From a virus: DNA of 27,063 nt. This document shows, one piece after another, positions 1-26,997 of the stretch. The position numbers were made by a program, and so were the translations under genes. The notes below the pieces were generated by a model. That model saw only the letters and a list, made by a program, of their open reading frames with translations. It was not told the origin of the DNA and did not search any database. The DNA is taken from the IMG/VR virus record IMGVR_UViG_3300042475_002819, positions 1 through 27,063 of that record; one strand, 5' to 3'. The stretch's first letter is position 1. The number at the start of each line of letters is the position of its first letter.

Positions 1-1426
1 TCAGGTGATCGAGGATCTCGGTCAGGTAGCGCGGGGCCTTCTTTCGATCCGCGACGCCAGACAGGAACATGCCGAACTCGTCCTGCTGAAACAGGATCGC
101 CGGATGGCGAAACGCGGCACTCAGCAGACCGCTGCCCGAGGCGATCTTGTTGCCGCCCAGGTAGTCCCCGAGACCGGCCTCCGAGAATGCGAGGTTGATC
201 ACCTCGCGCGCGGCGTTCTTTCCCGCGCCGCTGTCCGCGATGCCGATGACGTAGACGTTCGACCTGAGATTGGTCGGCGTCGCGTAGCGCCGCCCCATCA
301 GCACGCCGATCGCCGCGATGCATGCGCCGACAGCCAGGATCGGCTGCGGGCGACGCGCGGACTTGATGATCGCGTCGAACATCATCTGCATCGCGCCGCC
401 GAGGTCGAAATATCCGACAGGCGCGGCCTTCGGCGCGGGCCGCTCTTGCGGCTGCGGCTGTGCCTTCTTCTTCTTTCCTGGCGCATGCTTCTCGACGAAC
501 GCGCTTACATCGACAGCAGGCTCAGGCGGCTGCATGCCGAGCCGCTCGCGCAGCCATTGCGTGGCGCTCTCCAGATCGCTGCCCGCCGCCGCCATGACGA
601 GGTCGAGCGGCGTGTAATTGCGCCCCTCGCCCCAGTCGGTGATGCCCTGCGGATGGATCGAGACGTTCGCGCGCTCGCAGCCGCGCCAATGTGCGATCAC
701 GCGATAGCTGCCGTCGCGCCGCGCCTTCGACATCGGAAACAGATCCGGCACCCAGGCGTCGAAGTTCGACATCGCGGTGTCGTTGACCTCGCGCCAGTAT
801 GCGTTGCCGTCGCCCTCGCCAGACGAGCGGCGCGTTGTCGGCTCTCGGTCCTCTTCGGTCTGATACGGACGCACGACGCGCTCGATCTGCTCGATCAGAT
901 CGGCGGGAAGCTCAGGCAGTTCGTCTGCGGACACGCCTTCCAGCGTGTCGGGCGTCAGCCACGAGTATTCCATGCCGTCAGGATGCAGCGTCGGCGGCAG
1001 CACGGTCTGCCGCCCGTGCGACAGGATCTCGATGACCGACTGTCTGCCGACGTTCCACTTGCGCGAGGGCAAGTCGCTCGCGCGATAGAACGCCGTGTAT
1101 CCCTTCGCGCCACGCTTGCGGACGGGGCTGGGCGGGATCAGCGCTTCGAGCGCGGCGCGAAGCTCGTCGGGGCCGTAGTCGAAATCGACTGCGATCAGGT
1201 TCGACGCCTTGCCGAGCGCGACGCAGACGCCCGCGTCGGGCCAGCCGTTCCAGATGTCGATCTCGAACACGGTCGGCAGTCGGTCGCAGTACCGCTGCCA
1301 GTCGATCATCCCGCGCCACTCGCCGCGCGTGAACTCGCCTGGACGCTTTTCGCCGGGAACGATCGGGATGACGCTGTAGCCGCTGTCGATCAGCCGCTGC
1401 GCCACGCGCGCGTAGGGCGACTTCAT
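1..1426 (-). CDS. Bifunctional DNA primase/polymerase (PrimPol) fused to a P-loop ATPase, 3' part cut by the window edge
   Basis: Translated by hand from the ATG at 1426 (reverse strand): 475 codons with no stop, running off the window at base 1, so the C-terminus is missing. Residues about 1-160 match the PrimPol N-terminal family (PF09250-like): VDFD (D81, D83) fits the catalytic DxD, KGYTAFYR follows near 108, and IEILSHGRQTVLPP then LHPD (E133, H148) is the family's third block. After a Lys/Pro/Gln-rich linker (about 315-337) comes an ATPase module with Walker A GIADSGAGKN (about 396-405) and Walker B FQQDEFG (about 448-454). It would prime and possibly extend DNA at the phage origin, with the ATPase as a helicase-like motor. 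The start overlaps the RusA stop (ATGA), so the two are co-transcribed. A long frame on the other strand is its shadow. Sure of PrimPol; the exact ATPase family (DUF3987-like?) is inference. Confidence 0.88.
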   Translation of the reverse strand, partial: MKSPYARVAQRLIDSGYSVIPIVPGEKRPGEFTRGEWRGMIDWQRYCDRLPTVFEIDIWNGWPDAGVCVALGKASNLIAVDFDYGPDELRAALEALIPPSPVRKRGAKGYTAFYRASDLPSRKWNVGRQSVIEILSHGRQTVLPPTLHPDGMEYSWLTPDTLEGVSADELPELPADLIEQIERVVRPYQTEEDREPTTRRSSGEGDGNAYWREVNDTAMSNFDAWVPDLFPMSKARRDGSYRVIAHWRGCERANVSIHPQGITDWGEGRNYTPLDLVMAAAGSDLESATQWLRERLGMQPPEPAVDVSAFVEKHAPGKKKKAQPQPQERPAPKAAPVGYFDLGGAMQMMFDAIIKSARRPQPILAVGACIAAIGVLMGRRYATPTNLRSNVYVIGIADSGAGKNAAREVINLAFSEAGLGDYLGGNKIASGSGLLSAAFRHPAILFQQDEFGMFLSGVADRKKAPRYLTEILDHL

Positions 1427-1926
1427 TTGCGCTCCCCCGCGAGATGATCAAGCTGATAATGCAGGCGCGACGACGCATCCTGCGGCGCGCGCGTGATGAA
1501 GGCTGTGACGAGCGCTTGGGGTCCGTATCGTTTCTCGGCTGCGACGCGCACGACCTGTGTGTCGTCGCGATAGACGATGCCGTTCAGAGCGTCGAGCCAC
1601 GCCTTGAGAATGTTGTCGAGATCGGGCCGCACCGTGTGTGCGATTTCGCGACCGATCGCGGCGGCACGCTTCTTCTGGCTCCATGATGCGGGCGGCTCGA
1701 AGACCGCGAGGAGGTCGATGCGAACGGGTCCGTCGAACGGCAGGGACATGAGACCGCTCAACGTCTCGACCTCTGTGCGCGCAGCGGCACGCACGCGCTC
1801 CTCATAGCTCGCGGTCTTGTCTGGCGTCCGCATGTGTATCCGCAGCTTGCCGCCGCGTGCGCGACGCAGAGACGCGCGAGGGCGTCCCTTCGCGACAGGC
1901 TCGCCCGCAAGAGATATCGTGATCAT
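1423..1926 (-). CDS. rusA: RusA-type Holliday junction resolvase
   Basis: 167 residues from the ATG at 1926, chosen because GGAGG lies 7 nt upstream and residues MITISLAGEPVAKGRPR start like RusA homologues; an upstream ATG at 1983 lacks this. The diagnostic RusA block is at residues 99-122: RPDLDNILKAWLDALNG followed by YRDD, giving the acidic residues D102, D104, D121/D122 and K108 expected for metal-dependent cleavage of four-way junctions. RusA enzymes are homodimers that cut Holliday junctions symmetrically, and in phages they resolve recombination or replication intermediates before packaging. It is the first gene of the leftward operon and overlaps the PrimPol start by 4 nt. The length is slightly above the E. 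coli enzyme (120 residues), with extra residues at the C-terminus. Confidence 0.9.
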   Translation of the reverse strand: MITISLAGEPVAKGRPRASLRRARGGKLRIHMRTPDKTASYEERVRAAARTEVETLSGLMSLPFDGPVRIDLLAVFEPPASWSQKKRAAAIGREIAHTVRPDLDNILKAWLDALNGIVYRDDTQVVRVAAEKRYGPQALVTAFITRAPQDASSRLHYQLDHLAGERK

Positions 1927-1954
1927 CGTGCCGTCCTCCGTTGTCGAGGCTGAG

Positions 1955-1983
1955 AACATGAGGGCTTGACGCCCCCACGTCAA
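1955..1983 (-). promoter_or_regulatory. Leftward promoter of rusA-primpol, diverged copy of the repeated promoter module
   Basis: On the minus strand TTGACG (1983-1978) is followed by TGGGGGCGTCAAGCCCT (17 nt) and CATGTT (1960-1955). The spacer keeps the GGGGGCG half of the palindrome seen in the six rightward modules but has a degraded right half, and the -10 is weak (3 of 6 consensus bases). On the plus strand TTGACG-CCCCCA-CGTCAA (1966-1983) forms a perfect 6-bp inverted repeat. Assignment rests on spacing and similarity to the other modules. Confidence 0.5.
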
Positions 1984-1993
1984 CGCTGCGCGA

Positions 1994-2013
1994 CTGAGCG
2001 TTTACACGCTCAG
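1994..2013. repeat. Perfect 8-bp-arm palindrome containing GCGTTTACAC, in the divergent intergenic region
   Basis: CTGAGCGT-TTAC-ACGCTCAG: two perfect 8-bp arms around TTAC. It sits just upstream of the leftward promoter and upstream of the rightward replication promoter, the natural place for an operator or replication-protein site. The core GCGTTTACAC (1999-2008) recurs at 10531-10540 and, reversed, at 16930-16939 and 25160-25169, with a 9-of-10 copy at 14729-14737. Confidence 0.65.
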
Positions 2014-2034
2014 GGAATTTTCGATGTTTTGTCC

Positions 2035-2064
2035 TTGCGTGAAGCTCTGCGAAGAAAATATAAC
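2035..2064 (+). promoter_or_regulatory. Possible rightward promoter of the replication operon
   Basis: TTGCGT (2035-2040), an 18-nt spacer and TATAAC (2059-2064), 63 nt before the ATG at 2128, within the only AT-rich stretch of the divergent region. It has no palindromic spacer, so it appears to be under different control from the later modules. The -35 is weak; assignment is by eye. Confidence 0.4.
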
Positions 2065-2070
2065 GCCGAC

Positions 2071-2095
2071 AGTTGAGTTGCGTTTAGTTGAGTTG
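2071..2095 (+). repeat. Two direct copies of AGTTGAGTTG in the 5' leader of the replication operon
   Basis: AGTTGAGTTG at 2071-2080 and 2086-2095, a 15-bp period (about 1.5 helical turns), directly after the putative -10. Position suggests an operator or RNA-level site; function unknown. Confidence 0.6.
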
Positions 2096-2127
2096 AACGA
2101 AATCGAAACCCAATCAGGAGATCGAAC

Positions 2128-2547
2128 ATGAAGGCCAAGAAGTCCGTCGCGCCGAAGGCGCGCACCGTCGAGCAGATTGCCGACGAGCTAGCGAACGCGA
2201 AGCGCATCGAGAGCGATGCGAACAAGGCGCGCGTCGCCATCGAAGAGGAACTCATCAAGGCTCTCGCCTTCGACAAGGTCGAGGGTTCCTCGACCTATGA
2301 GGTTGGTGAGTACAAGGTGACGCTCACCGCGAAGCTCACGCGCAAGCCGACCGACATGTCGGTCTTCGTCGATGCCGTGATCGCGAACATCCCCGAGGCT
2401 CTGCGCCCGATCAAGATCAAGCCCGAGGTCGATGCGACGGGGCTGAAGTACTTGCTCAACAACGAGCCGGATCTCTTCGCGAAGATCGCGAAGCATATCG
2501 TCACCGAACCCGCGAAGACCGCCGTCGCGATCTCGCGCAAGATCTGA
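2128..2547 (+). CDS. Conserved phage protein of unknown function, first gene of the replication operon
   Basis: 139 residues. ATG 2128 with AGGAG 7 nt upstream (2116-2120). The N-terminus is basic (MKAKKSVAPKAR), followed by a helical, charged segment (about 14-45, coiled-coil-like) and an alpha/beta part with YKVTLTAKLTRKPT (about 62-75) and NNEPDLFAKIAKHIVTEPAKT (about 111-131). I recognise this pattern as a small phage family that habitually lies just upstream of Sak4-like ATPases, possibly the group listed as DUF7173, but I cannot confirm the name. By context it may be a partner of the ATPase and the DUF669 protein downstream. No catalytic motif is visible. Confidence 0.8.
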   Translation: MKAKKSVAPKARTVEQIADELANAKRIESDANKARVAIEEELIKALAFDKVEGSSTYEVGEYKVTLTAKLTRKPTDMSVFVDAVIANIPEALRPIKIKPEVDATGLKYLLNNEPDLFAKIAKHIVTEPAKTAVAISRKI

Positions 2548-2561
2548 AAGGAAATCGATCA

Positions 2562-3413
2562 ATGGCTATCTCTCTGTCTTCCCTGCGGCGCACTTCGGTG
2601 CGCCGTCCGCCGCGCCTGTTCTTGTACGGCATTCATGGCGTCGGCAAGTCCACGTTCGCCGCTGCCGCGCCGAACCCGGTCTTCATTCAGACCGAGGACG
2701 GTCTGGACGCGCTCGACGTGCAGGCGTTCCCGCTCGCGAAGTCTTTCGACGACGTGATGGAGGCGATCGGCTCGCTCTACGAGGAGGAGCATGATTTCAG
2801 CACGCTCTGCATCGACAGCGCCGACTGGCTGGAGCAACTCATCTTCAAGGATGTCGCCGCCGAGCAGAAGGTCTCCTCCATCGAGGACATCGGCTACGGG
2901 AAGGGCTACGTCTTCGCGTCCAGCCGCTGGGCGACGCTGCTTGAGGGTCTCGATCTGTTGCGGAACGAAAAGAACATGGCGATCGCTCTGATCGGCCACG
3001 CTCAGATCCGCCGGTTTGAAGATCCGATGGTCGATGGTTACGATCGCTATTCGCCGGATTTGCACAAGGTCGCGAGCGCGACGCTGTGCGAGTGGGCAGA
3101 CGTTGTTGCGTTCGTGAACTTTCGCGTCGCGACGAAACAGGTCGATGCTGGCTTCAACCGCAAGGTCGCGAAGGGTGTCGGCTCCGGTACGCGCACGATG
3201 TATCTGGAGGAGCGGCCCGCGTTTACCGCGAAGAGCCGCTGGCGCATCGGATCGGACTGCCCGCTTGACTGGGCGACGTTCGAGGCGCGACTGAACAAGG
3301 CGCAGGGCGGCGAGGATGCCGCGCCTGCCGAGCAATCCGAGCCTGACCAGCCGCAACCGGCTCAGGATGCACCGCAGAAGTCTGCGGTGAAACGCGGCAC
3401 CAAGAAGGAGTGA
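2562..3413 (+). CDS. RecA-like P-loop ATPase of the phage AAA_24 / Sak4-like group
   Basis: 283 residues from ATG 2562, preceded by AAGGAAA, 14 nt after the previous stop. Walker A is GIHGVGKST (23-31), and Walker B is LCIDSADW (about 82-89). A conserved HAQIRRFEDP follows near 147, where these ATPases carry a post-Walker-B segment that reads the nucleotide and DNA. This layout is that of phage AAA_24 proteins, which include single-strand-annealing-associated Sak4-like ATPases. The C-terminal 40 residues are Pro/Gln/Glu-rich and end in KRGTKKE, probably a disordered tail. Placed between a conserved phage protein and a DUF669 protein, with a Cas4-like nuclease nearby, it likely acts in homologous recombination or replication restart. 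An exact annealing or strand-exchange activity is inference. Confidence 0.85.
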   Translation: MAISLSSLRRTSVRRPPRLFLYGIHGVGKSTFAAAAPNPVFIQTEDGLDALDVQAFPLAKSFDDVMEAIGSLYEEEHDFSTLCIDSADWLEQLIFKDVAAEQKVSSIEDIGYGKGYVFASSRWATLLEGLDLLRNEKNMAIALIGHAQIRRFEDPMVDGYDRYSPDLHKVASATLCEWADVVAFVNFRVATKQVDAGFNRKVAKGVGSGTRTMYLEERPAFTAKSRWRIGSDCPLDWATFEARLNKAQGGEDAAPAEQSEPDQPQPAQDAPQKSAVKRGTKKE

Positions 3414-3419
3414 CGAATC

Positions 3420-3626
3420 ATGTCCGAAGAGAAGAAGACGAAGAAGACCACCGCGACCAAGGCTCCCGCGAAAGATCCGGTCGTCTACGTCCTGTATCGC
3501 GGCGAAGCCGAGATCGTCGGCGTCTGCACGCGCGCGGACACCGCGATGGAGACCATCTCGGCTGATCGTGACGTTCAGTTCGCGCGCGTCGCGATCGCGC
3601 GGCAGAAGCGTGGCACCCGCGCCTGA
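3420..3626 (+). CDS. Small Lys-rich hypothetical protein
   Basis: 68 residues from ATG 3420, with AAGGAG 10-15 nt upstream overlapping the end of the ATPase gene. The first 20 residues are Lys/Thr/Ala-rich (EEKKTKKTTATKAPAK), then a compact beta-rich part contains VVYVLYRGEAEIVGVC. No known family recognised. A strong Rho-independent terminator follows 9 nt after the stop, so this may be the last gene read at full level from the operon promoter. The basic tail is compatible with nucleic-acid contact, which is only a guess. Confidence 0.7.
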   Translation: MSEEKKTKKTTATKAPAKDPVVYVLYRGEAEIVGVCTRADTAMETISADRDVQFARVAIARQKRGTRA

Positions 3627-3634
3627 TTGGCGCT

Positions 3635-3664
3635 GCGGGGCCAGGATCGTCCTGGCCCCGCTTT
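3635..3664 (+). terminator. Rho-independent terminator or attenuator within the replication operon
   Basis: Perfect 12-bp stem GCGGGGCCAGGA (3635-3646), loop TCG, TCCTGGCCCCGC (3650-3661), then TTTAAT. The T-run is short, so partial read-through into the DUF669 gene 20 nt downstream is likely. No obvious promoter lies between them. Confidence 0.8.
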
Positions 3665-3684
3665 AATCGAACGAGGAAATCACA

Positions 3685-4191
3685 ATGGCAAATCTCGGAA
3701 GACGTTTTGACGCGGACGAAGTGCCGCCGAGCGAATATCAACCGATCCCCGTTGGCAGCTACCGCGCCGAATTCGTCGCGAGCGAGATCAAGGCAACGAA
3801 GAGCGGGAGCGGTCAATACATCGAGTTCCAAGGCACCTTGCTCGACGGCGAGTATCAGGGTCGCCGCTTCTGGGACCGCATCAATCTTTGGAACGAAAAT
3901 CGGCAAGCGGTGCAGATCGCAGAGCGCACGTTCGCCGATATGTGCAAGGCGTGCGGGAGGGGCGCGATCGAGGACACCGACGAACTGCATCAGATCCCGT
4001 TCGTGCTGAAGGTCAGGATGCAGAAGAACAAGATCACGGGCGAGATGCAGAATGCATACGGCTACGCACCGGACGGCGAGCCGCAGGCTCCTGCCCGCGC
4101 GCCCGCGACGAGCAGGCCCGCGCCGCCATCGGCACCCGCCCAGGCGACCCCCGCAAAACCCGCTGGGAAGCCCTGGGAACGCAAGCGCTGA
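3685..4191 (+). CDS. DUF669-family phage protein, putative single-stranded-DNA-binding partner
   Basis: 168 residues from ATG 3685, with GAGGAAAT upstream. The N-terminal 120 residues fit DUF669 (PF05037): PIPVGSYRAEFVASEIKAT, then SGQYIEFQGTLLDGEYQGRR with FWDRINLWNENRQAVQIAER, and an FVLKVRMQKNK strand near 110. The fold is expected to be a small beta-barrel. Residues 130-165 are Ala/Pro-rich, ending PWERKR, like the flexible acidic or Pro-rich tails of SSB-type proteins, though this tail ends basic. DUF669 genes commonly neighbour phage recombination ATPases and Cas4-like nucleases, as here. The SSB role is inferred from that context. It lies between two strong terminator-like hairpins. 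Confidence 0.8.
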   Translation: MANLGRRFDADEVPPSEYQPIPVGSYRAEFVASEIKATKSGSGQYIEFQGTLLDGEYQGRRFWDRINLWNENRQAVQIAERTFADMCKACGRGAIEDTDELHQIPFVLKVRMQKNKITGEMQNAYGYAPDGEPQAPARAPATSRPAPPSAPAQATPAKPAGKPWERKR

Positions 4192-4210
4192 ACGTCCGCT
4201 ACCCAACCCC

Positions 4211-4247
4211 CAGCCCGCTGGCTTTCGCTCGCCAGCGGGCTGATTTT
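4211..4247 (+). terminator. Rho-independent terminator or attenuator ahead of the nuclease gene
   Basis: Perfect 12-bp stem CAGCCCGCTGGC (4211-4222), 8-nt loop TTTCGCTC, GCCAGCGGGCTG (4231-4242), then ATTTTC. The nuclease SD (CTGGAGGG, 4253-4260) follows directly. The leader GATTTTCGGCCCTGGAGG resembles the leader of the minus-strand gene starting at 12481. Confidence 0.75.
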
Positions 4248-4264
4248 CGGCCCTGGAGGGCACA

Positions 4265-5239
4265 ATGGCAAAGCTCCCCCCGCTCGACCACAACGACCCC
4301 GTCATCGACGCGATCAACCGCGCCCTTGAGGAGCGCCAGGAGGACACGCCCCGCGCGTACCTGGGCGCGTCAGCGATCGGCCAGTCGTGCGAGCGCAGGC
4401 TCTGGCTGGATTTCCGCTGGGCGCGCAAGCGGAGCATCGCGGCGGCGGGGCTGTGCGCGATCGACGATGGGCATCGCGGCGAGCGCATCATGGCGGATCG
4501 CCTGCGAATGGTTCCCGGCGTCAGCTTGATCACCGAGGACGAGGCCGGGAATCAGATCGGCTTCGCAGATCTCGGCGGGCACTTTCGCGGCAACGCGGAC
4601 GGTCTCATCGAGGGTCTGCCACAGGCGAAAGCGCTGCATGTCTGGGAATGTAAAATCGCCAACGAAAAGAAATTCGAGAAGTTGATCGATCTGAAAACTC
4701 GGCTTGGCGAGAAGGCTGCATTCGCGAAATGGGACGCGACCTATTACGCGCAGGCGCAGATCTACATGCATTACCTGGGCGCGCATCGGCACTACCTGAC
4801 TGTCGGCTCGCCGGGGGTGCGCCGCATGGTGACCGTGCGAACGGAATACGATGCGATGGCTGCGCTGAACTTGGTCTCGAAAGCGCAGCGCGTCATCGAG
4901 GCGCAGCGCATGCCGGTCAGCATCTCGACTGATCCGTCGTGGTACGAGTGCCGGTTCTGTCCGCATTACGACGGCTGTCACGCTGCTGATCGGAGCGCGC
5001 CGACGAGCGCGGCGTCGAACTGTCGGACGTGTCTGCACTCGACGCCGCTGATGACCGGCGGCTGGCATTGCGCGCGGTTCGAGAAGATGATCGACGTTGA
5101 AACGCAGCGCGCCGGGTGCCCTGCACATCTCTACATTCCCGACCTGATCGACGGAGAGCAGACCGACGCAGGAGACGACTGGATCGAGTACCGGCTCTTG
5201 AATGGCAAGTTCTGGTGGGACGGGAAACAGGAAGATTGA
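4265..5239 (+). CDS. PD-(D/E)XK nuclease, Cas4-like with cysteine cluster
   Basis: 324 residues from ATG 4265 (GGAGG 4-9 nt upstream). Nuclease core: GHRGE (69-73), RGNADG with D112, WECKIA with E128 and K130, and the QxxxY-type helix YYAQAQIYMHY (160-170). C42 in QSCERRLW plus C229, C232 and C238 in YECRFCPHYDGC form the one-plus-three cysteine pattern of Cas4/AddB-type iron-sulfur nucleases. A second set, C253, C256, C269 and C285, follows. It is probably a 5'-3' or 3'-5' exonuclease acting with the Sak4-like ATPase in recombination. The C-terminus WWDGKQED and stop lie in a 23-bp direct repeat that recurs at the end of the next gene, showing that the next gene was inserted here. Polarity and substrate cannot be read from sequence. 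Confidence 0.87.
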   Translation: MAKLPPLDHNDPVIDAINRALEERQEDTPRAYLGASAIGQSCERRLWLDFRWARKRSIAAAGLCAIDDGHRGERIMADRLRMVPGVSLITEDEAGNQIGFADLGGHFRGNADGLIEGLPQAKALHVWECKIANEKKFEKLIDLKTRLGEKAAFAKWDATYYAQAQIYMHYLGAHRHYLTVGSPGVRRMVTVRTEYDAMAALNLVSKAQRVIEAQRMPVSISTDPSWYECRFCPHYDGCHAADRSAPTSAASNCRTCLHSTPLMTGGWHCARFEKMIDVETQRAGCPAHLYIPDLIDGEQTDAGDDWIEYRLLNGKFWWDGKQED

Positions 5240-5247
5240 CGCGGGGG
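5225..5247 (+). repeat. Left copy of a 23-bp direct repeat flanking the inserted gene
   Basis: Starts AAACAGGAAGATTGACGCGG and ends GGG; identical to 6038-6060. It covers the end of the nuclease gene (KQED and stop) and a TTGACG box. This copy is followed by AGGCGAGACG instead of a -10, so the promoter is broken here and its G-run now serves as the SD of the next gene. Confidence 0.95.
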
Positions 5248-5257
5248 AGGCGAGACG

Positions 5258-6052
5258 ATGTCTGACACGTTCAAAACGCCAATCTTGCAGCGCATAGAGC
5301 GCGAGATACCGCATGTCGCCGGATATCTGCATGAGAGATATATCGAAGACCATCGAAATGAAGCCGAAATAATTGGCGATCTCAGGCGGCTCGTCTTGAT
5401 CGCGCTGACCGAAGACGACAAAAGGATCGACCTCGCCACTCCCATTGCCAAGGCCGTTGCCAAAGCCGTCAAGCAAACAGAGGGAACGATTAGAATGGCG
5501 TCATGGAACGCCGACATGAACCTATCCTCTGCGGAGCTAAATGAGCGAAAGGAGCGCGCGACTGCAATTCTGAAGCGGATATTCAGCGCCGACAAAGTCA
5601 CGGTGATGGAGAATTTAGACGTGACCCTGTTTCGCGAGGGCGCAATGAAGCGTCTTTGCTTTGATGGGCGTCAGCGCTTTGCGGAAGCAATAAGGCTCGT
5701 CAATAACGGCATCAGCATTGATGATCTCCCCGTCGTGTCCGAAGCCAACTACAAGACCGCCCGCGATCTCAGCGAACAAGATCGTCTCAATTTAGAGAAG
5801 AGAATTGCCGAGCTAGAAGATCGAGAAATTATGCTCGCGGACGACCTGAGAATCGAGAAGAGGCTTTCCCGCGAAGCCGCGACCGCTGCCGCCGCTGAAC
5901 GTGAGCGGCTGATCAAGCTGGCCGAGACGGCGCAGCGTCAGGCGGGCGAGGTGCAGAAGCTGCTGGCCGAGGCGAGGGCCGCGCAAAACGAAACTGAGAA
6001 GCAAGGCCTCCTGGCGAAAATGAGCGCCGCCTTGTTTAAACAGGAAGATTGA
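5258..6052 (+). CDS. Inserted, AT-richer hypothetical gene (moron-like), coiled-coil C-terminus
   Basis: 264 residues from ATG 5258. The SD GGGGGAGG (5243-5250) is made partly from the left direct repeat. No family recognised. The first 95 residues are helical with hydrophobic patches (LRRLVLIALTEDDKR). Residues about 165-255 are a long Glu/Arg/Ala-rich predicted coiled coil (LEKRIAELEDREIMLADDL and AAAAERERLIKLAETAQRQ). Composition differs sharply: 59 of 120 bases (49%) are G/C at 5281-5400, against 42 of 60 (70%) at 4381-4440 in the nuclease gene. It also uses ATA, AGA, TTA and AAT codons that its neighbours avoid. The direct repeat gives it the same KQED C-terminus as the nuclease. I infer a recently acquired gene. 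It could be a membrane-independent structural or defence protein; nothing shows which. Confidence 0.8.
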   Translation: MSDTFKTPILQRIEREIPHVAGYLHERYIEDHRNEAEIIGDLRRLVLIALTEDDKRIDLATPIAKAVAKAVKQTEGTIRMASWNADMNLSSAELNERKERATAILKRIFSADKVTVMENLDVTLFREGAMKRLCFDGRQRFAEAIRLVNNGISIDDLPVVSEANYKTARDLSEQDRLNLEKRIAELEDREIMLADDLRIEKRLSREAATAAAAERERLIKLAETAQRQAGEVQKLLAEARAAQNETEKQGLLAKMSAALFKQED

Positions 6053-6060
6053 CGCGGGGG
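6038..6060 (+). repeat. Right copy of the 23-bp direct repeat, inside an intact promoter module
   Basis: Identical to 5225-5247. Here it continues into the full palindrome and TATATA, so this copy keeps the promoter of the helicase gene. Removing one repeat plus the gene between (813 bp) would restore a nuclease gene followed directly by the helicase promoter. Confidence 0.95.
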
Positions 6061-6122
6061 CGCAGCGCCCCTATATAGATCCGGTCCTCCGGCATCCCGC
6101 TGGGGAGAGACAGGAGCTACCG
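6049..6122 (+). promoter_or_regulatory. Promoter-operator-leader module 1, upstream of the helicase
   Basis: TTGACG (6049-6054), 17-nt spacer, TATATA (6072-6077). The spacer holds GGGGCGC-A-GCGCCCC (6057-6071), a perfect 7-bp-arm palindrome abutting the -10 and a likely repressor site. The -35 overlaps the stop codon of the upstream gene. The leader has a weaker hairpin than the other modules (CTCCGGC 6087-6093 with GCTGGGG 6099-6105, two G-U pairs, loop ATCCC). The SD is AGGAG (6112-6116), 6 nt before the ATG. Confidence 0.85.
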
Positions 6123-7721
6123 ATGACCATCACCCTTCGCGACTATCAGGCTCAGGCAATCCAGTCGATCTGGACGTGGTTTTCGACCCGCGACGGCAAC
6201 CCGCTGATCGAGTTGCCGACCGGCACCGGCAAGAGCCTCGTCATCGCTGGCCTGTGCCAGCAAGTGCTGGAGCAGTACGAGGACTCGAAAATCCTAGTGG
6301 TCACCCATGTGCGCGAACTGATCGCGCAGAACTACGCAGAGCTTCTGCGGCTCTGGCCGGAAGCGTCCGCTGGCATCAACAGCGCTGGCATCGGTCGCCG
6401 CGACTTTCGCCAGAAAATCATCTTCTGCGGCATCCAGTCGGTTGCCGACCACGCGCATAAATTCGGAAAAGTCGATCTGATCTTGGTCGATGAGGCGCAC
6501 CTGATCCCGCGTGATGGGGCGACGCGCTATCAGACATTCATCAACGACCTTCGCGCCGCGAACCCGTATGCGCGCGTCATCGGCTTGACGGCGACGCCAT
6601 ATCGCCTCGACAGCGGTCGCCTCGACCAGGGCGACGACGCGCTGTTCTCGGGCACGGCATACAGCTACCCCGTCGTTCAAGCGATCAAGTCGGGCTACCT
6701 GTCGCCGCTCGTAAGCAAGGCGACCGGCATGAAGCTCGACGTTGCTGGGGTCGGTACGCGCGGCGGCGACTACATCGCTGGCGATCTGGAGCGCGCAGTC
6801 AATATCGATGCCGTCAACCGCGCCGCGATCAAGGAGGTCACCGAATTCGCCGCGCGCGACGGTCGCCGCTCCTGGCTGATCTTCGCCGCTGGCGTCGATC
6901 ACGCGCAGGCTCTCGCGGCGATCGTGCGCGAGCATGGCGTGTCGGTCGCGACGATCTTCGGTGACACCGCGAAAGCGGAGCGTGACGCGACCATCGCATC
7001 GTTCAAGCGCGGCGAGATCACCTGTCTGGTTTCGATGGGCGTGTTGACCACCGGGTTCAATGCCCCGGCGGTTGACCTCATTGCCATGCTGCGCCCGACG
7101 CAATCGACCGGCCTGTACGTCCAGATCTGCGGTCGCGGGATGCGCCTCGCGCAGGGCAAGAAGAACTGCCTCGTGCTGGACTTCGCGGGCAACATCTTGC
7201 GGCACGGCCCGATTGATGCGGTCGCGCCGAAGGGCAAGGGCAAGGGCGACGGCGAGGGCGAAGCCCCGGCGAAGGAGTGCCCTAGCTGCGGCTCGTATGT
7301 GCATGCGTCGTCGTCCGAGTGTCCAGATTGCGGTCACATTTTCCCGAAGCCCGAGCCGAAGATCGCGAGCGTCGCGGACACGTCTGCGATCTTGAGCGAC
7401 AGCACGCCGAAGTGGGTCTCGGTCACCGGCATGTCGTTCGCTCGCCATTCCAAGCTGGGCAAGCCCGACAGCCTGCGCGTCACCTACCAGACGCGCACGG
7501 CGAGCGTCTCGGAGTGGATCTGCCTGGAGCATGATGGCTACGCGCGCGATAAGGCCAAGGCATGGTGGAAGCGCCGCGCGAGCAGCGCTGCGCCGAGCAG
7601 CGTGACCGAGAGCATGAAGCGGCTGAACGAGGTCCGCCAGCCGAGCGAGATCAAGGTTCGTCAGGTTGGACGCTATTTCGAGGTGCTTGATGCGCGCGAT
7701 ATGCCCGTGCGGTCGAGGTGA
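6123..7721 (+). CDS. Superfamily 2 DEAD/DEAH helicase with C-terminal zinc ribbon
   Basis: 532 residues from ATG 6123. The Q-like motif LRDYQAQAI (5-13) precedes motif I LPTGTGKS (31-38), motif Ia VVTHVRELIAQN, motif II DEAH (123-126), motif III LTATPYR (155-161), and motif VI QICGRGMRLAQGKKN (about 335-349). This is the RAD25/UvsW-like layout common in phages. A zinc ribbon follows: C386/C389 and C400/C403 (CPSC then CPDC). After it comes a 120-residue C-terminal part without known motif. It likely unwinds or branch-migrates replication and recombination intermediates, acting with RusA and the nuclease. It has its own operator-bearing promoter, so its expression is separable from the upstream operon. 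The next gene starts inside its 3' end. Confidence 0.92.
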   Translation: MTITLRDYQAQAIQSIWTWFSTRDGNPLIELPTGTGKSLVIAGLCQQVLEQYEDSKILVVTHVRELIAQNYAELLRLWPEASAGINSAGIGRRDFRQKIIFCGIQSVADHAHKFGKVDLILVDEAHLIPRDGATRYQTFINDLRAANPYARVIGLTATPYRLDSGRLDQGDDALFSGTAYSYPVVQAIKSGYLSPLVSKATGMKLDVAGVGTRGGDYIAGDLERAVNIDAVNRAAIKEVTEFAARDGRRSWLIFAAGVDHAQALAAIVREHGVSVATIFGDTAKAERDATIASFKRGEITCLVSMGVLTTGFNAPAVDLIAMLRPTQSTGLYVQICGRGMRLAQGKKNCLVLDFAGNILRHGPIDAVAPKGKGKGDGEGEAPAKECPSCGSYVHASSSECPDCGHIFPKPEPKIASVADTSAILSDSTPKWVSVTGMSFARHSKLGKPDSLRVTYQTRTASVSEWICLEHDGYARDKAKAWWKRRASSAAPSSVTESMKRLNEVRQPSEIKVRQVGRYFEVLDARDMPVRSR

Positions 7722-20493: not shown

Positions 20494-20662
20494 GAGCAGG
20501 AATGTGTTGCCCCGGCCCGCGCCCCTGCCCCATGCTGATCACGGCGCGCGCTGTAGCCGCCCGACCGCTCGCCGGGGTGCCTCCCCCCGCCTGGACCCCG
20601 GTCGTCGTGCCCCTGGTCAGGCGGCGAGTAGCCGGGGGACATATCCAGCGAGAGGGACCGCG

Positions 20663-21190
20663 ATGCGAGGCGTCAGGAAGAAGATCAAGGCCAAGGGCGT
20701 CCGCAAGGGCGCTATGGGACGCCCATCCGTTTATTCCGAGGAGCTAGCCGAGAAAATCTTCTCGCGCATGTCGCGAGGCGAGAGCCTGACGCGCATCCTG
20801 CGCGACGACGGAATGCCAGATATGACGCAGATCTGGCGATGGCTCGATAAGCCGATCACGGAAGACTTCCGCCCCCGATACGCGAGAGCGAGAGAGCTTC
20901 AAGCCCATGCTCTGATCGACGGTGTGTTCGATATCAGCGACGACGCGCGCAACGATTATGCGGTCGATGACAGTGGAAATCGCATCGTCGATCACGAACA
21001 CATCAATCGCTCGCGTCTGCGTGTCGATACGCGGAAATGGTATGCCTCCAAGGTGCTGCCGAAAATTTACGGTGACAAGCTGATCAGCGAAGTCACCGGA
21101 AAAGATGGCGGAGCGATCAAAGTCGAGGACACGACGCGAGCAAACACGCTGGCAGAAATCATGGCCGCGTTGAAACGCAAGGAGACGTGA
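20663..21190 (+). CDS. terS: Terminase small subunit (Sf6-like family)
   Basis: 175 residues. ATG 20663 has GAGGGA 5 nt upstream; a longer upstream frame is Arg/Pro-rich and rejected. GRPSVYSEELAEKIFSRMSR, then GESLTRILRDDGMPDMTQIW with RWLD (about 20-65) is the N-terminal HTH that binds packaging DNA. Then YARARELQAHALIDGVFDIS with DDARNDY, and RLRVDTRKWYASKVLPKIYG, is the oligomerisation part, as in Sf6-type small terminases. It recognises viral DNA and feeds it to TerL. The start of the next gene follows the stop by 2 nt. The Lys-rich first 20 residues (KKIKAKGVRKGAMG) are longer than usual. Confidence 0.88.
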   Translation: MRGVRKKIKAKGVRKGAMGRPSVYSEELAEKIFSRMSRGESLTRILRDDGMPDMTQIWRWLDKPITEDFRPRYARARELQAHALIDGVFDISDDARNDYAVDDSGNRIVDHEHINRSRLRVDTRKWYASKVLPKIYGDKLISEVTGKDGGAIKVEDTTRANTLAEIMAALKRKET

Positions 21191-21192
21191 CG

Positions 21193-24100
21193 ATGGGCGC
21201 GAAGAAGATCGTTGAGGGCGCGAAGAAGAAGGCGTCCAAGTCTTTCAAGGACACGACGCGAAAGCTGTCCGCGCCCAGCATCAACCAGCCCGATCGATCG
21301 GTCCCAAGCCCAGAGCTTCTTGCCCAGCAGCTTGAGGCTGGCCTCACGCCAAACAGCAGGACAGGGACAATCGATGTCCCGTATGGCTCTTCCAAGATCA
21401 CGCCCAGCCAGCTTGAAGAGATGAATGCGGCCCTGCGAACCGAGCCGATAACGCTCGGAACCGCTGGCCGCACGCCTCAAGCTGCGATCGAGTTGTATGG
21501 AGCGGATCGTCCAATATTGCGGGAAGACATTCGGAGGACGCCAGAGTTTCTGAGGCCCGGTACTGACGTTTTACTTCCGTTCCTCGGCGACCGAAGCGCC
21601 GTTTATCGGCTGCTTGGATATCGAGGGGCAAACCTGTCTCAGCCAGTCAACATCCCTGGCGGGCATGATTATGCGCGGCAGCTTAAATCAGGCATCTGGA
21701 GATCTGGAAGCGCCGTTCAGAACAAGTTGATGGATGCTGCCCGAGCGATAGACAGCAGAGGATACAATCCGGTCGGAATTTATTTTCCGATGGGACCAGA
21801 AGCGACTGACGGGGCCATGTTTTCTCGGCAGATCGTGGACGATATCTTGCGTAAATCGAAGAGGCGCAAAGAAGTCAGCCCCGAAACCCTCGAACGACTT
21901 GCGGATCGTGTCAGATCGGAAAAGGTGACAACGGAAGACAAGGGAACCATCTACCCGTATCAAGATTTCCCAGGGTTCTCTTCCCGGAAATACGGGGACT
22001 GGATGGACCGCTCGTTTAACAACCGAGCTGCTGTCATAGACATGATGGGGGCAAAAGCCATGCAGGATGCTGGCATGCCCAACGTCACTGGTCTCCGCCA
22101 CGCCATACAAGACGACGAGCTTCGCGGCCTCCCGAAAGAAGGACCGGGGTTCAATCCTTATGAGACGTATGGCGGGCAGATGATGTCTTACGTCAACACG
22201 TCGCCTCGCGCGCTGCGGTCTGGAGACAGAACGTGGCTCGACAATCCAAGCTATCCCGTCGATATGGCGGGTGACTACATGGGTGGGTTCAGCATCCCCG
22301 TGCCGCGCAGCATCATGTTTCGAGATTTCGTCACTTCGTTCCCGTCCCATCCGAAAGGCATTCAGCGATCAATGGTGATGCGAGTTCCTCCGATTCAGAA
22401 GGTCGATCAGCAGTTGATCGACGAGGCAATGAAATGGACGGAGGGGGCAGACAGGCTTGGCATCATGGATCTTCTGTCTCGCTACGCAGATGGCGGCGCG
22501 GTTCAGCGCTTCGACGAAGGCGGACTGAAGCGCCAGAAGTCCAAGTTCGCTGCTGCGGCGAGCGTCGCGAAGGGCGCGCTCGGCGCGTTCCGCGACGCGC
22601 CGACGAAGAAGATCGAGGACTGGAAGTGGCGACCGCTCGCTGACGTGCCGGAAGCGCAGCGCATGGCTGGAGAGCCGCTGCCCGCGCATATCCATCCGTT
22701 CGGTGACTTGATGGTCGAGCAGGCCGAGCGCGCCGACATGAAGGGGCTGACGCCGCGCGACTTGGTGAAGGCCTACACGTTGACGCGCTCGTCGATCCAA
22801 CGCGGCGCGCTCAAACGTGCGACGGTCGAGGAGACCGGCCTGCCGATCTCAAGCAGCGACGAGATGATCCGCCCCGAAGGAGCGTTCGCCGACTGGCTGC
22901 GAACGCCGATGGGCCAGCGCTATCTCGATGCTGCGGTGAAGGGCAACATCGACCAGAGCGCCATCGACGATGCGATGATGAAGATGCGCCCGTTCGGCTT
23001 GCACAACAGCCTCGGCGACGACCTCGTCTACGGTGCGAAGGACATCCCCTCGCTTGCGCCCGCCGCGAGCGACCTCGTCGCGCGCGCGTATCACGGCAAG
23101 AGCGATCCGCAGGAGTGGCGCAACTTGATGCGCGGCGTTCATGGCGTCGATGCCTCGAAGAGCGGCTTCATGTCGTCGATGCTTGGGCGCGGCGACAACC
23201 CGACGCTCGATGCGCGCCAACTCAAGATGCACACGCCTGACGACACCAAGCTGGGGGTGTACGGCAGGCGCTCGTCGAAGAAGCTGCCGATGACCGGCGG
23301 CGACGAAGCGGTCGAGCGTCTCGCGGCGCGTCAGCGTGCGCTCGGTCTCGACATGCCGTCGCGTTTCGATCCGATGTATCAGCATCTCACGCACCACGGC
23401 ATGTGGGATGCGTCAAGCGGCACGCAGACGACGCATCAGGACATCATCGACGCGATGCGATACGAGAGCGGCGGCAAGGTCGAGAAGGACAGCGAGCGGT
23501 TTAAACGCGAGGCGGACGAACGCATCGCCGCTGATCGCGCGCAGTATGACCGCGACATCGCGCGACGCAGAGAGCAGGGCGGTAGCGCGCCGCGCCGCTT
23601 CATCGATCAGGCGGCGAAGTCCGCCAGAACGCAATGGTCGTCGCTGGATAGTGAGGGGAACCCGGTTGCATTCTGGAAAGCGGGCGACGCGCCTGGAATG
23701 CTGTATGACGTGGCCTCCATGCCAGCGGATCTCACGGAGATATTCGAGGCCGATATCGGCGGAAACGCAGCGGGCGATTACTCGAAGGATGCCAGCAAGC
23801 ACATGGAGCGCTTGCGTGCGGCTATCGGCAAGGAGACGGAGGTTGCCCCGGCGAAGGGCATGATCGAGCATGCCGGTTCGTCGTTCGGCAACATGATCGG
23901 GCAGATCCCGCTGCTGCCGCTCTTGCCGCTTCGTGCTGGCAAGCAGGCGATCGATGCGGGAATAGCCGCCGCTGGTCCGCTCAAGAGGGCGGCGAAAACT
24001 GCGTTTGAATTCATCAGCCCGACTCTGGCTCCGAAGTTTTCTCGCAACATCGCAACCGGAACCGGCATCGGGACCGGCATCGGATATGGAATAGAGGCTC

Positions 24101-25548
24101 TCATGGGAAACGATGAAGAAGCTCAGGTTGGCTACAACGAAGGCGGCGGGGTGAAGTCGAAGATCGCGCCGCTCGTCAATCTCGCACGCGGTGCCGTGCG
24201 TCGCATTGGCGAGGGCACCGGATACAGGAGCGTCCCAGGCAAGCCCGCGACGGTCGAGATCCCGACCATCGGGCGCGTCGAGACGCTGCCGATCCCGCAG
24301 CTTGAGGACGCGGCGGCGAGCTACATGCGATCGATCGGTCGCCCTGGCGAACACGTCATCACCGAGTATCCCGAGTTCGACGAGGATCTCGCGCGCCGTC
24401 TTGCGCGCGCCTACGACGAAATGAAGCACGACCCGGCTGATCCGCGCGTGCAGCGGTCGTATCAAGCGCTCGCTGATGAAACGATGGCGCAGCTTGAAAA
24501 GGTCAAGGACAGCGGCTTGGACATTCGCTTCCTCAAGGAAGGAATGGACGATCCGTATGCGAAGTCACCCGCGCTCGGCTACGCAGACATCATCGAGAAC
24601 AACCGGCTCTACACGTTCCCGACCGACTTCGGCTTCGGCACGACGGACTCGAACGCAGAGCTTCTGTCGCAGTTCAAGCACCCGATGCTGACGAAGATCG
24701 GCAGGCTGGGCGACAAGGACAATGCCGTCGTGAACGACGCATTCCGTGTCGTCCACGATGCGTTCGGCCACTTCGGCCCCGGCAATCCGTTCTTCCGCCA
24801 CAAGGGCGAAGAGCGCGCGTGGCTCAATCACGCGCCGATGTATTCGCCCGAGGCGCGGCCCGCTGCTGCGGTCGAGCTTCGCGGGCAGAACAGCTACCTC
24901 AACTTCGGCCCGCACGCGGAACATAACGCGACGGCAAGCGGTGCCGACACGGTCTACGCCGATCAGAAGCTCGGCTTGATGCCGGAATGGGCTGTGACGG
25001 AGAAGTCCAAGAAGAAGCCAGTACAGAAGGCCGAAGGCGGAAGCGTCACCGGCAGCGGCATGAACATGGAAAACAAGATCGAGCGCGCGCCGCTGCCGAA
25101 GCCCGAGACGCCGACGTTCGACGGCATGTCGTTCGAGAAGGCGTTCGCCGCCGCTCGTCGTGTAAACGCGCCACGCTTCATGTGGCGCGGCAAGCCGTAC
25201 ACGACCGAGTTGAAGCGTGAGAGCGCGGGCGACATCGAGCGGCGCGTCGAGCGGCGCATCCCGCAGGCACCCGCTCCGCAGCAGGACGAAGCAGCGGTGC
25301 GAGAAGCCGAGATGCCGTCGCGGCTCTACCAGCGTCCCGCCGCCCAGGCCACTCCCGCCCACGATGCGTTCGGCCCGCCGCGCCCGTTCCTGAGCGCTCC
25401 AGAGCAGATGGATGGTCTGATGCCATATGAGGGCGCAGCCGCGCCCAGGCTCAATCCAGCGCAGATGCAGGGCACTCTGCGGCGCTTCGGTCGGATGGAC
25501 ATGGACCCGTCGAGCTTCGCATATCGGTTCGCGCGCACGATGAGGTAA
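21193..25548 (+). CDS. 1,451-residue modular polyvalent phage protein with GG linkers
   Basis: ATG 21193 preferred over GTG 21187 because GGAG lies 8 nt upstream. Four linker motifs split it: ADGGAVQRFDEGGL (432-445), YESGGKV (757-763), YNEGGGV (981-987) and KAEGGSV (1279-1285). Module A (about 55-420) has LLPFLGDRSAVYRLLGYRGA and NIPGGHDYARQL, a recurring phage module of unknown role. Module B (about 450-750) includes NPTLDARQLKMHT. Module C (about 790-975) has hydrophobic IPLLPLLPLR and a glycine-zipper-like TGTGIGTGIGYGI. Module D (about 1000-1265) has a conserved VHDAFGH block (HDAFGH at 1188-1193) and AVELRGQNSYLNFGP. Such multi-domain proteins are typical polyvalent or ejected virion proteins. 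Its position between terS and terL is unusual. Composition shifts along it (about 50% GC near 21720, 73% near 23280), suggesting a mosaic origin. The true activity is unknown. Confidence 0.85.
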   Translation: MGAKKIVEGAKKKASKSFKDTTRKLSAPSINQPDRSVPSPELLAQQLEAGLTPNSRTGTIDVPYGSSKITPSQLEEMNAALRTEPITLGTAGRTPQAAIELYGADRPILREDIRRTPEFLRPGTDVLLPFLGDRSAVYRLLGYRGANLSQPVNIPGGHDYARQLKSGIWRSGSAVQNKLMDAARAIDSRGYNPVGIYFPMGPEATDGAMFSRQIVDDILRKSKRRKEVSPETLERLADRVRSEKVTTEDKGTIYPYQDFPGFSSRKYGDWMDRSFNNRAAVIDMMGAKAMQDAGMPNVTGLRHAIQDDELRGLPKEGPGFNPYETYGGQMMSYVNTSPRALRSGDRTWLDNPSYPVDMAGDYMGGFSIPVPRSIMFRDFVTSFPSHPKGIQRSMVMRVPPIQKVDQQLIDEAMKWTEGADRLGIMDLLSRYADGGAVQRFDEGGLKRQKSKFAAAASVAKGALGAFRDAPTKKIEDWKWRPLADVPEAQRMAGEPLPAHIHPFGDLMVEQAERADMKGLTPRDLVKAYTLTRSSIQRGALKRATVEETGLPISSSDEMIRPEGAFADWLRTPMGQRYLDAAVKGNIDQSAIDDAMMKMRPFGLHNSLGDDLVYGAKDIPSLAPAASDLVARAYHGKSDPQEWRNLMRGVHGVDASKSGFMSSMLGRGDNPTLDARQLKMHTPDDTKLGVYGRRSSKKLPMTGGDEAVERLAARQRALGLDMPSRFDPMYQHLTHHGMWDASSGTQTTHQDIIDAMRYESGGKVEKDSERFKREADERIAADRAQYDRDIARRREQGGSAPRRFIDQAAKSARTQWSSLDSEGNPVAFWKAGDAPGMLYDVASMPADLTEIFEADIGGNAAGDYSKDASKHMERLRAAIGKETEVAPAKGMIEHAGSSFGNMIGQIPLLPLLPLRAGKQAIDAGIAAAGPLKRAAKTAFEFISPTLAPKFSRNIATGTGIGTGIGYGIEALMGNDEEAQVGYNEGGGVKSKIAPLVNLARGAVRRIGEGTGYRSVPGKPATVEIPTIGRVETLPIPQLEDAAASYMRSIGRPGEHVITEYPEFDEDLARRLARAYDEMKHDPADPRVQRSYQALADETMAQLEKVKDSGLDIRFLKEGMDDPYAKSPALGYADIIENNRLYTFPTDFGFGTTDSNAELLSQFKHPMLTKIGRLGDKDNAVVNDAFRVVHDAFGHFGPGNPFFRHKGEERAWLNHAPMYSPEARPAAAVELRGQNSYLNFGPHAEHNATASGADTVYADQKLGLMPEWAVTEKSKKKPVQKAEGGSVTGSGMNMENKIERAPLPKPETPTFDGMSFEKAFAAARRVNAPRFMWRGKPYTTELKRESAGDIERRVERRIPQAPAPQQDEAAVREAEMPSRLYQRPAAQATPAHDAFGPPRPFLSAPEQMDGLMPYEGAAAPRLNPAQMQGTLRRFGRMDMDPSSFAYRFARTMR

Positions 25549-25551
25549 GAC

Positions 25552-26997
25552 GTGCCGCTGGACCTGTCACCGAAGGATCTCGCAGCGCTGTCGGATGACG
25601 ATCTACTCGTCATCCGATGGCGTCTTGCGTTTCTGGAGCGTGCGCGCGCAAACCAGACAGAGCCGCCAGGAGACTGGGGCATCTGGGGCATCATGGCGGG
25701 GCGCGGCTTCGGCAAGACTTTCGCGGGCGCGAACTGGATTGCGAGCGAAGCGCTCGTCGATCCGAAGTCGATCAGCCACGTCATCGCTCCGACGTGGAGC
25801 GACGCGCAGCACGTCTGCTTCGAGGGACCGGCTGGTCTGCTCGCGACGATCCCGCACCAGCTTGTGAAGGACTACAACCGCTCCGATCTGATCATCACGC
25901 TCTACAACAACGCGACCATCCGAGCGTTCTCGGCGGAGAAGCCCGATCGTCTGCGCGGCCCGCAATGCCATCGTGCATGGTGCGACGAGCTTGCTGCGTG
26001 GCAACGCGCGCAAGAGACATGGGACATGCTGATGATGGGCCTGCGCCTTGGCGCAAGACCGCGCGTCGTTTTCACGACGACGCCGAAGCCCGTGCCGATC
26101 GTGCAGTCGCTGGTGAGGGACAAGCGCTGCGTGATCACGCGCGGCTCGACATACGACAACCGCGCGAACCTCGCGCCGACGTTCTTCGATCAGCTTACGA
26201 AATATGAGGGCACGCAGCTTGGTCGCCAGGAGATCCACGGCGAACTGATCGATCCCGAGGAAAGCGGCATCGTCAAGCGGACGTGGTTCAATCTGTGGCC
26301 CGCAGACAAGCCGCTGCCCAAGCTGTCGTTCGTCGTGATGTCGCTCGACACGGCATTCACCGAGCGCACGCGCGACAAGAAGACCGGCGAGGGCGACCCG
26401 ACAGCGTGCAGCGTCTGGGGCGTGTTCGAGCATGAGAAGAAGAAGAACCTGATCTTGCTGGACTGCTGGCAGGACTGGCTGTCGATGCCCGACCTGATCA
26501 CGCGCGTGACCAGGGAATTGAAGGTCGAGTATGGCGAGGTCGATGCGCCGATCATCAAGCCGATGTTCGGACCGTCGATCGTGGCTGGCAGCGGCAAGAA
26601 GATCGATCTGCTGCTGATCGAGGACAAGGGTAGCGGCATCTCGCTCAGACAGATGTTGGAGCGAGAGGGCGTCGTGGCGTATGCATACAATCCTGGCAAC
26701 GCCGACAAGCTCTCCAGGCTCCACATGGTCTCGCATATTCCAGCCAATGGTCTCGTGTGGCTCCCCGAGAGCCAGAAGATCCCCGGTGCGCCGCGCACCT
26801 GGGCAGAGCCGCTGCTCGCGCAGCTATGCGTTTTCACGGGCGAAGGATCGACCAAGCACGACGACTTCGTCGATAGCACGACGCAGGCGTGGCGGCTGTT
26901 CGCGGACAAGAACCTGCTGTCCGCCACCGGCTACAAGCCCGAGAAGCGCGACCCCGGCCCGCCCGCAAAGCCGAAGGTCAATCCCTATGCGATCTGA
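25552..26997 (+). CDS. terL: Terminase large subunit
   Basis: 481 residues from GTG 25552, preceded by GAGGTAAGA; the start abuts the previous stop by 3 nt. ATPase: Walker A GRGFGKT (50-56), and Walker B with HRAWCDELAAW (D145, E146). TTTPKP (175-180) fits the coupling motif. RNase H-like nuclease: SLDTAF (D266), LLIEDKGSG (E357, D358) and KHDDFVD (D437, D438, D441). This is the Terminase_6 type: it pumps DNA into the procapsid and cuts it. The length is typical. Closest context: terS upstream of the giant gene, with a likely portal or head gene beginning at 27006. Confidence 0.95.
   Translation: MPLDLSPKDLAALSDDDLLVIRWRLAFLERARANQTEPPGDWGIWGIMAGRGFGKTFAGANWIASEALVDPKSISHVIAPTWSDAQHVCFEGPAGLLATIPHQLVKDYNRSDLIITLYNNATIRAFSAEKPDRLRGPQCHRAWCDELAAWQRAQETWDMLMMGLRLGARPRVVFTTTPKPVPIVQSLVRDKRCVITRGSTYDNRANLAPTFFDQLTKYEGTQLGRQEIHGELIDPEESGIVKRTWFNLWPADKPLPKLSFVVMSLDTAFTERTRDKKTGEGDPTACSVWGVFEHEKKKNLILLDCWQDWLSMPDLITRVTRELKVEYGEVDAPIIKPMFGPSIVAGSGKKIDLLLIEDKGSGISLRQMLEREGVVAYAYNPGNADKLSRLHMVSHIPANGLVWLPESQKIPGAPRTWAEPLLAQLCVFTGEGSTKHDDFVDSTTQAWRLFADKNLLSATGYKPEKRDPGPPAKPKVNPYAI

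Follow-up and report, generated by a model that had tools for sequence, protein, structure and literature searches.

What kind of protein occupies 1,451 residues between the two terminase genes of a virus? We addressed this question in IMG/VR record IMGVR_UViG_3300042475_002819, whose whole length of 27,063 bases, probably a fragment, is called the window here. The open reading frame (ORF) in question lies at 21193..25548 (plus strand, like the parts of the protein and the terminase genes given below), begins with an ATG preceded by AAGGAG, and has full-length homologues in two related loci, L002 (43% identity) and L005 (56%). Its translation, together with PHROG matches for both flanking genes, confirmed the position between the small and large terminase subunit genes (TerS and TerL) described in an earlier note made from the letters of the DNA. 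Our best reading is that the product belongs to the phage polyvalent-protein class and carries uncatalogued modules and a recurring seam motif. We consider it likely that this is a modular polyvalent-type protein with swappable modules, disordered motif seams and a glycosylase fold, which is packaged and delivered and whose motif is recognised. Since related viruses cut and swap the modules at the seams, the protein suggests a delivered multi-tool takeover protein.

The chain can be divided by homology. Relatives were taken from viral contigs and phage records and confirmed by tblastn, and profiles were built for three regions: SEG1 (about residues 126-424; 21568..22464), SEG2 (about 466-757; 22588..23463) and HDA (about 1033-1270; 24289..25002). 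Profile searches of viral loci returned 79, 85 and 127 domain matches, respectively. The order SEG1-SEG2-HDA is found in the window, L002 and L005, most relatives have SEG2-SEG1, and single loci show HDA-SEG2-SEG1 (L021) or HDA-SEG1 (L057). In L104, L129, L131 and L132, an HDA gene stands immediately upstream of a SEG2-SEG1 gene (the L129 contig stops within SEG2); in many loci HDA stands alone as a gene of roughly 290-600 aa, and in others it is part of 2,000-4,000-aa chains. At least three modules (SEG1, SEG2 and HDA) are independently inherited, and they are separable by homology and by fold: several disparate globular domains share one chain. None of the three matches a Pfam family, and scans of Pfam, PHROGs and NCBIfam gave no function for any of them.

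Four GG-x-V linkers separate the parts of the chain, exactly where the earlier note had placed them (434, YADGGAV; 760, YESGGKV; 984, YNEGGGV; 1282, KAEGGSV), and a fifth GG at 443 (RFDEGGL) comes just after the GG of the first linker. Linker 1 is YADGGAVQRFDEGGL (residues 431-445; 22483..22527), and in relatives the motif likewise follows SEG1; linkers 2, 3 and 4 span residues 757-763 (23461..23481), 981-987 (24133..24153) and 1279-1285 (25027..25047). The consensus [YF]-A-[DE]-G-G-x-V is conserved. Among ORFs with SEG1 or SEG2, the stretch of 30 residues that follows a module has 22.6 motif copies per 1,000 aa (75 in 3,312; Fisher p 5e-54), a rate that depends on the trimming of the SEG profiles to stop just before the motif, whereas the near-absence of the motif inside modules (0.03 per 1,000 aa; 1 in 31,004 aa) does not. 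The rate is 5.4 before modules and 2.3 elsewhere, and falls to 0.02 per 1,000 aa in minus-strand ORFs. Given this difference between positions after modules and those inside them or on the minus strand, the motif is not a product of chance. When all GG pairs were considered with no motif imposed, the combination of [FYMHW] at -3 and V/I at +3 accompanied 42% of those after SEG1 or SEG2, 0% of those inside modules and 14% of those elsewhere. In module copies continuing for at least 60 aa, the motif was present within 40 aa after the module in 35/40 cases for SEG1, 27/48 for SEG2 and 11/36 for HDA; short genes have 0 copies inside the cores and few beside them. In several loci, copies no more than 40 aa from a C-terminus tend to be basic (K/R-GG-K-V) and internal copies are often acidic (D/E-GG). 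A spurious ORF in GC-rich DNA, with GG pairs scattered at random, would fit the long antisense ORFs present, but dozens of homologues, the ribosome-binding site and these motif statistics make such an artefact hardly credible, and conservation refutes it.

The motif also marks where related proteins part company. The window and L001 share 94% DNA identity from 24133 onward, the first base of YNEGGGV, and the block shared with L003 (86%) covers 24139-25040, from linker 3 to linker 4. Blocks shared with L002, L004 and L005 stop, as does that with L003, between 25034 and 25049, within linker 4 or a little beyond it. Comparison of L002 with L005, which are 96-98% identical around the site, reveals an extra module of ~260 aa flanked on both sides by a linker copy. 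When all motif-bearing proteins were considered, 64% of internal homology ends at an identity of at least 70% (78 ends, not all independent, in 62 distinct ORF bins) and 72% at an identity of at least 80% (29 ends, in 25 bins) lie within 10 aa of a motif, against 8% under random placement. The linkers are points of module exchange, insertion and reordering.

Such a concentration of breakpoints would also arise if the linkers were passive, that is, if GG-rich disordered seams were simply where recombinants survive, with no recognition involved. Linker disorder and the near-absence of linkers in standalone modules agree with this explanation, to which we give considerable weight although we think it somewhat improbable. 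Passive linkers do not account for the conservation of Y/F at -3 and V/I at +3 at junctions across divergent phages, nor for the recurrence of the motif outside junctions, in the array proteins described below. Repeats at the DNA level are insufficient as the sole driver, since the synonymous codons of motif copies resemble one another only a little more than expected by chance (0.52 vs 0.42). Because the Y/F and V are conserved, the motif appears to be recognised and not merely flexible.

Structure prediction agreed with this division. The AlphaFold2 (AF2) model of residues 101-776 reached a mean predicted local distance difference test score (pLDDT) of 83.7 but a predicted template modelling score (pTM) of only 0.54, with pLDDT below 50 at 433-445 (linker 1), 760-767 (linker 2) and a few other short stretches. 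Confidence in the HDA model likewise drops at both ends, toward linkers 3 and 4. In these models the linkers are disordered and no single continuous fold runs across linkers 1 and 2; the proposal that GG motifs stand between independent modules is upheld by module homology and by the low-confidence linkers.

SEG2 gave the clearest model-based assignment, and its predicted OGG2-like HhH-GPD DNA glycosylase fold has good support. The model aligned with OGG2 structures of Tm, Ss and Mj at VIA Z scores of 17.0, 16.9, 16.6 and 16.2 (200-205 residues, 2.7-2.9 A) and with other HhH-GPD enzymes at Z 8-10, and Foldseek (E 0.016, probability 1.00) agrees with an OGG2-type fold. Two residues, Asp673 (23209..23211) and Lys656 (23158..23160), are invariant in 100% of 45 nonredundant members, and Asp673 is aligned with the GPD catalytic Asp. 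Profile comparison by hhalign with archaeal OGG2 proteins retrieved by PF22175, which was weak (E 0.022), placed Asp673 opposite the invariant OGG2 Asp; this Asp and the OGG2 Lys are the catalytic residues of that family. Because the PF22175 profile found no match in the window record and hhalign reached only that E value, we file SEG2 as a fold-alike and not as a member of the PF22175 family. A PDB sequence search with the SEG2 profile found nothing. The fold and the Asp thus have support and lyase chemistry does not, and the assignment is based more on structural than on sequence similarity.

SEG1 is tentatively assigned a YTH/PUA-like fold; members of this class frequently bind modified bases. 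Its model aligned with YTHDF2 over 136-147 residues, nearly the whole YTH domain, at VIA Z scores of 7.1-7.6, below the tool's safe level. YTH and EVE are PUA-like readers of modified bases (PMC7641849).

The HDA module, named for HDAFGH at residues 1188-1193, which the earlier note had singled out, proved to be a confidently predicted fold (pLDDT 86.9, pTM 0.84). Its fold search in the PDB gave a best Foldseek E of 1.0 and no VIA Z of 2 or more, although the absence of a PDB match is no proof that the fold is new. Aromatic amino acid hydroxylases have a similar HDxFGH motif, and tryptophan hydroxylase came up in the HDA fold search at no better than Foldseek E 3.2 and TM 0.18. Clear matches were found among viral models, some of them annotated as polyvalent or ART-PolyVal-like; a PDB sequence search with the HDA profile found nothing, and in PHROGs only phrog_3170 (function unknown) matched. 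The invariant residues H1188, D1189, H1193, E1206, H1213 and E1228 point to a putative metal-dependent enzyme.

Homologues of HDA were also found at 80 loci in cellular genomes. On the bacterial contigs L203, L214, L200, L206, L204 and L213, they are encoded on their own in the chromosome as proteins of about 240-300 aa, and the bacteria concerned include Nocardia, Streptomyces, Aquimarina, Chryseobacterium and Ruegeria. Several bacterial loci have an adjoining S-adenosylhomocysteine (SAH)-hydrolase-like NAD-binding gene (PF00670); in L200, DUF3293 follows, and in Actinophytocola (L213, 814 aa) all three are fused. Together, they look like an uncharacterised enzyme set. That HDA homologues are chromosomal enzymes would suit a protein that is not ejected at all but works, late or early, as a cytoplasmic multi-enzyme protein in the producing cell. 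We judge this improbable in view of the location among packaging and portal genes and of neighbours with M15, SLT, ART-PolyVal, PBECR5 and InPase, domains typical of phage polyvalent proteins (PMC5512222).

The neighbourhood of the relatives also bears on the class to which the protein belongs. Elsewhere among them, the gene cluster is located between portal and scaffold/capsid genes. In L012 and L117, a neighbouring gene encodes M15 and ART-PolyVal (plus GNAT in L012), and copies of the motif separate these domains: the L012 protein has HADGGRV at 52, GNAT at 64-121, YASGGYV at 218, M15 at 294-378, YADGGEV at 413, ART at 569-721 and HARGGVA at 736. In further relatives, SLT, PBECR5, InPase and ART-PolyVal occur within the same chain, and PMC5512222 lists ART, PBECR, InPase and lysozyme domains for phage polyvalent proteins. 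The earlier suggestion of a polyvalent protein is supported by this context: catalogued domains of the class lie in the same or adjacent chains of relatives, though a Pfam scan found none in the window protein itself.

In the phage collection, no cultured phage with the gene cluster was seen, only the uncultured record MW202675. In this complete genome, portal, scaffold-like and major capsid protein (MCP) genes lie near the module gene cluster, and the motif is found mainly in the polyvalent genes, in a basic disordered K-x-G-G-K-V protein and in an 'internal virion protein D'. Single loose matches occur in a few other genes, and the motif is absent from the portal, TerL, TerS, MCP and acidic scaffold-like protein. 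Roughly 18 of ~50 loci have such a basic array protein (pI ~10, disordered, with 4-13 GG-x-V/I/A) encoded downstream of the SEG2-SEG1 gene (L012:9778-10926, L021:4049-5470, L108:9648-11261 and others).

These arrays matter for the idea that the GG motifs are protease sites, at which a polyprotein would be split into its modules either within the prohead or once delivered. Residues of the motif are conserved beyond the needs of flexibility, the sites have low pLDDT, and the P1 polyvalent proteins DarA and DdrB, known to be processed (PMC5512222), offer a precedent. We nevertheless think cleavage unlikely. A Pfam scan of the window protein found no peptidase or MPTase (zincin) domain, and the HDA motif is HDxxGH, not HExxH; an embedded MPTase processing domain is common, though not universal, in phage polyvalent proteins. 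The annotated genes of MW202675 offer no prohead protease, only M15 and SprT-like genes, and its MCP and acidic scaffold-like protein lack the motif. Moreover, a pure domain-release site would not predict arrays in a basic, disordered protein that has no folded modules to set free. What weight remains after cleavage and passive linkers falls to recognition without cleavage, or to an unknown role. We lean toward a docking partner as the reader of the motif, because these searches gave no protease specific to it and the arrays belong to a protein that lacks folded modules.

On this reading, synthesis of the protein would be late, and the chain would be packaged alongside the genome and enter the host with it. 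Early in infection, the base-reading and glycosylase modules may work on bases that are damaged or modified, whether the DNA is that of the incoming phage or of the host, and HDA may act on a small molecule or another target. Most likely, the motif is a recognition sequence that is common to the internal proteins of this phage group and doubles as a hinge. A bolder version, which we offer as a speculation with the odds against it, is that [YF]xxGGxV is a dedicated code of the group's internal or ejected proteins: one partner would read every module boundary, and any motif-flanked domain would become cargo. A candidate reader would be a virion hub, perhaps acting through the basic GG-array protein, or a protease.

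Several points weigh against a delivered, motif-recognised polyvalent protein. Delivery is argued from class and context, and domain scans of the window protein, Pfam among them, turned up none of the catalogued polyvalent domains. The SEG1 match to YTHDF2 is under Z 8. In the hhalign comparison, Lys656 is one residue off the OGG2 lysine, which leaves lyase activity uncertain. Cellular HDA homologues adjoin SAH-hydrolase-like genes, and HDA need not therefore be an anti-defence domain. Finally, the motif is nearly absent from standalone module genes, showing that the modules themselves do not require it.

The remaining parts of the protein and its surroundings complete the description. The Ala/Gly-rich segment 3 (residues 768-980; 23494..24132) is homologous in L002, L003 and L005, and its position holds unrelated sequence in L001 and L004. 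The 'hydrophobic glycine-zipper' part of the earlier note is only mildly hydrophobic (best 19-residue Kyte-Doolittle mean 0.95) and has no convincing transmembrane helix. The Pro/Ala-rich C-terminal part (residues 1286-1451; 25048..25545) is conserved in L001 only (91%) and partially elsewhere. A SEG1-only scan of viral contigs gave no match, the SEG1 alignment was too divergent to serve as a query, and a second two-module alignment (A6), poorer than A5, was left unused. An Rpn3_C match (E 0.21) was dismissed as noise, and the depositor names 'RelA/SpoT', 'lysin', 'type I restriction enzyme' and 'yenB' among the matches, unsupported by domain scans, were not used.

TerS (20504..21190; PHROG 1482, E 5e-45) probably has its true start near 20663. 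TerL (25552..26997; PHROG 38, E 1e-23) shares 60% identity with its counterparts in Caulobacter phages RLK and GB2A, a match that makes Caulobacter and other freshwater Alphaproteobacteria candidate hosts. L002 retains the order TerS-gene-TerL at a protein identity of only ~43%, so the position of the gene is no accident of window assembly. In Caulobacter phage RLK (L178), two genes stand between TerS and the matching TerL, one of 222 aa that likewise bears the annotation large terminase and one for a methyltransferase; judged from this phage, the terminase locus behaves as if open to insertions. At 1423-7721, the window has a replication and recombination block with a RusA-like resolvase, a Sak4-like annealing protein, a single-stranded DNA-binding protein-like protein, a Cas4-domain exonuclease and a helicase. 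In the window's clade, a second large motif-bearing protein lies downstream of TerL (L002:7357-11079, L005:4832-8443); the L002 copy carries ART-PolyVal, and the window stops before the equivalent site.

The protein class is already known. Its three modules, however, are outside Pfam, one of them bringing a predicted DNA glycosylase fold into a polyvalent chain, and the seam motif is unmentioned in the main text of PMC5512222, where the words 'linker' and 'glycine' are also absent; a literature search for GGxV or KKGGKV in phage found nothing relevant. The motif offers a simple sequence ruler for dividing otherwise unreadable giant phage proteins, bounding known and unknown domains alike, and makes the assembly and swapping of delivered effector sets by phages a testable question. 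If the motif were indeed a code, it would provide virion effectors with a plug-in cargo system and make the OGG2-like glycosylase a new effector type.

Compared with known systems, the window protein resembles phage polyvalent proteins (Iyer et al. 2017, PMC5512222; P1 DarA and DdrB; N4 virion RNAP) in being large, multidomain and encoded beside packaging genes, and in its disparate modules, with ART-PolyVal, InPase, PBECR5, SLT and M15 in the same chain or adjacent genes of relatives. It differs in that SEG1, SEG2 and HDA belong to no Pfam family, the seams carry a conserved GG-x-V and no MPTase was found by Pfam. SEG2 shares its predicted fold and invariant GPD Asp with OGG2-type 8-oxoguanine DNA glycosylases (HhH-GPD; 3n0u, 3fhg, 3knt), but is only 7-11% identical to them, has no PF22175 match, has its Lys offset by one and is embedded in a polyvalent chain. 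The alignment of SEG1 with YTH/EVE readers covers nearly the whole YTH domain, whereas there is no sequence similarity and the likeness is one of predicted fold. Finally, the HDA domain is homologous to phrog_3170 / Mycobacterium phage Bxz1-like gp107 and to the bacterial HDxFGH proteins, which, unlike the window protein, are mostly products of single-domain genes without GG seams.

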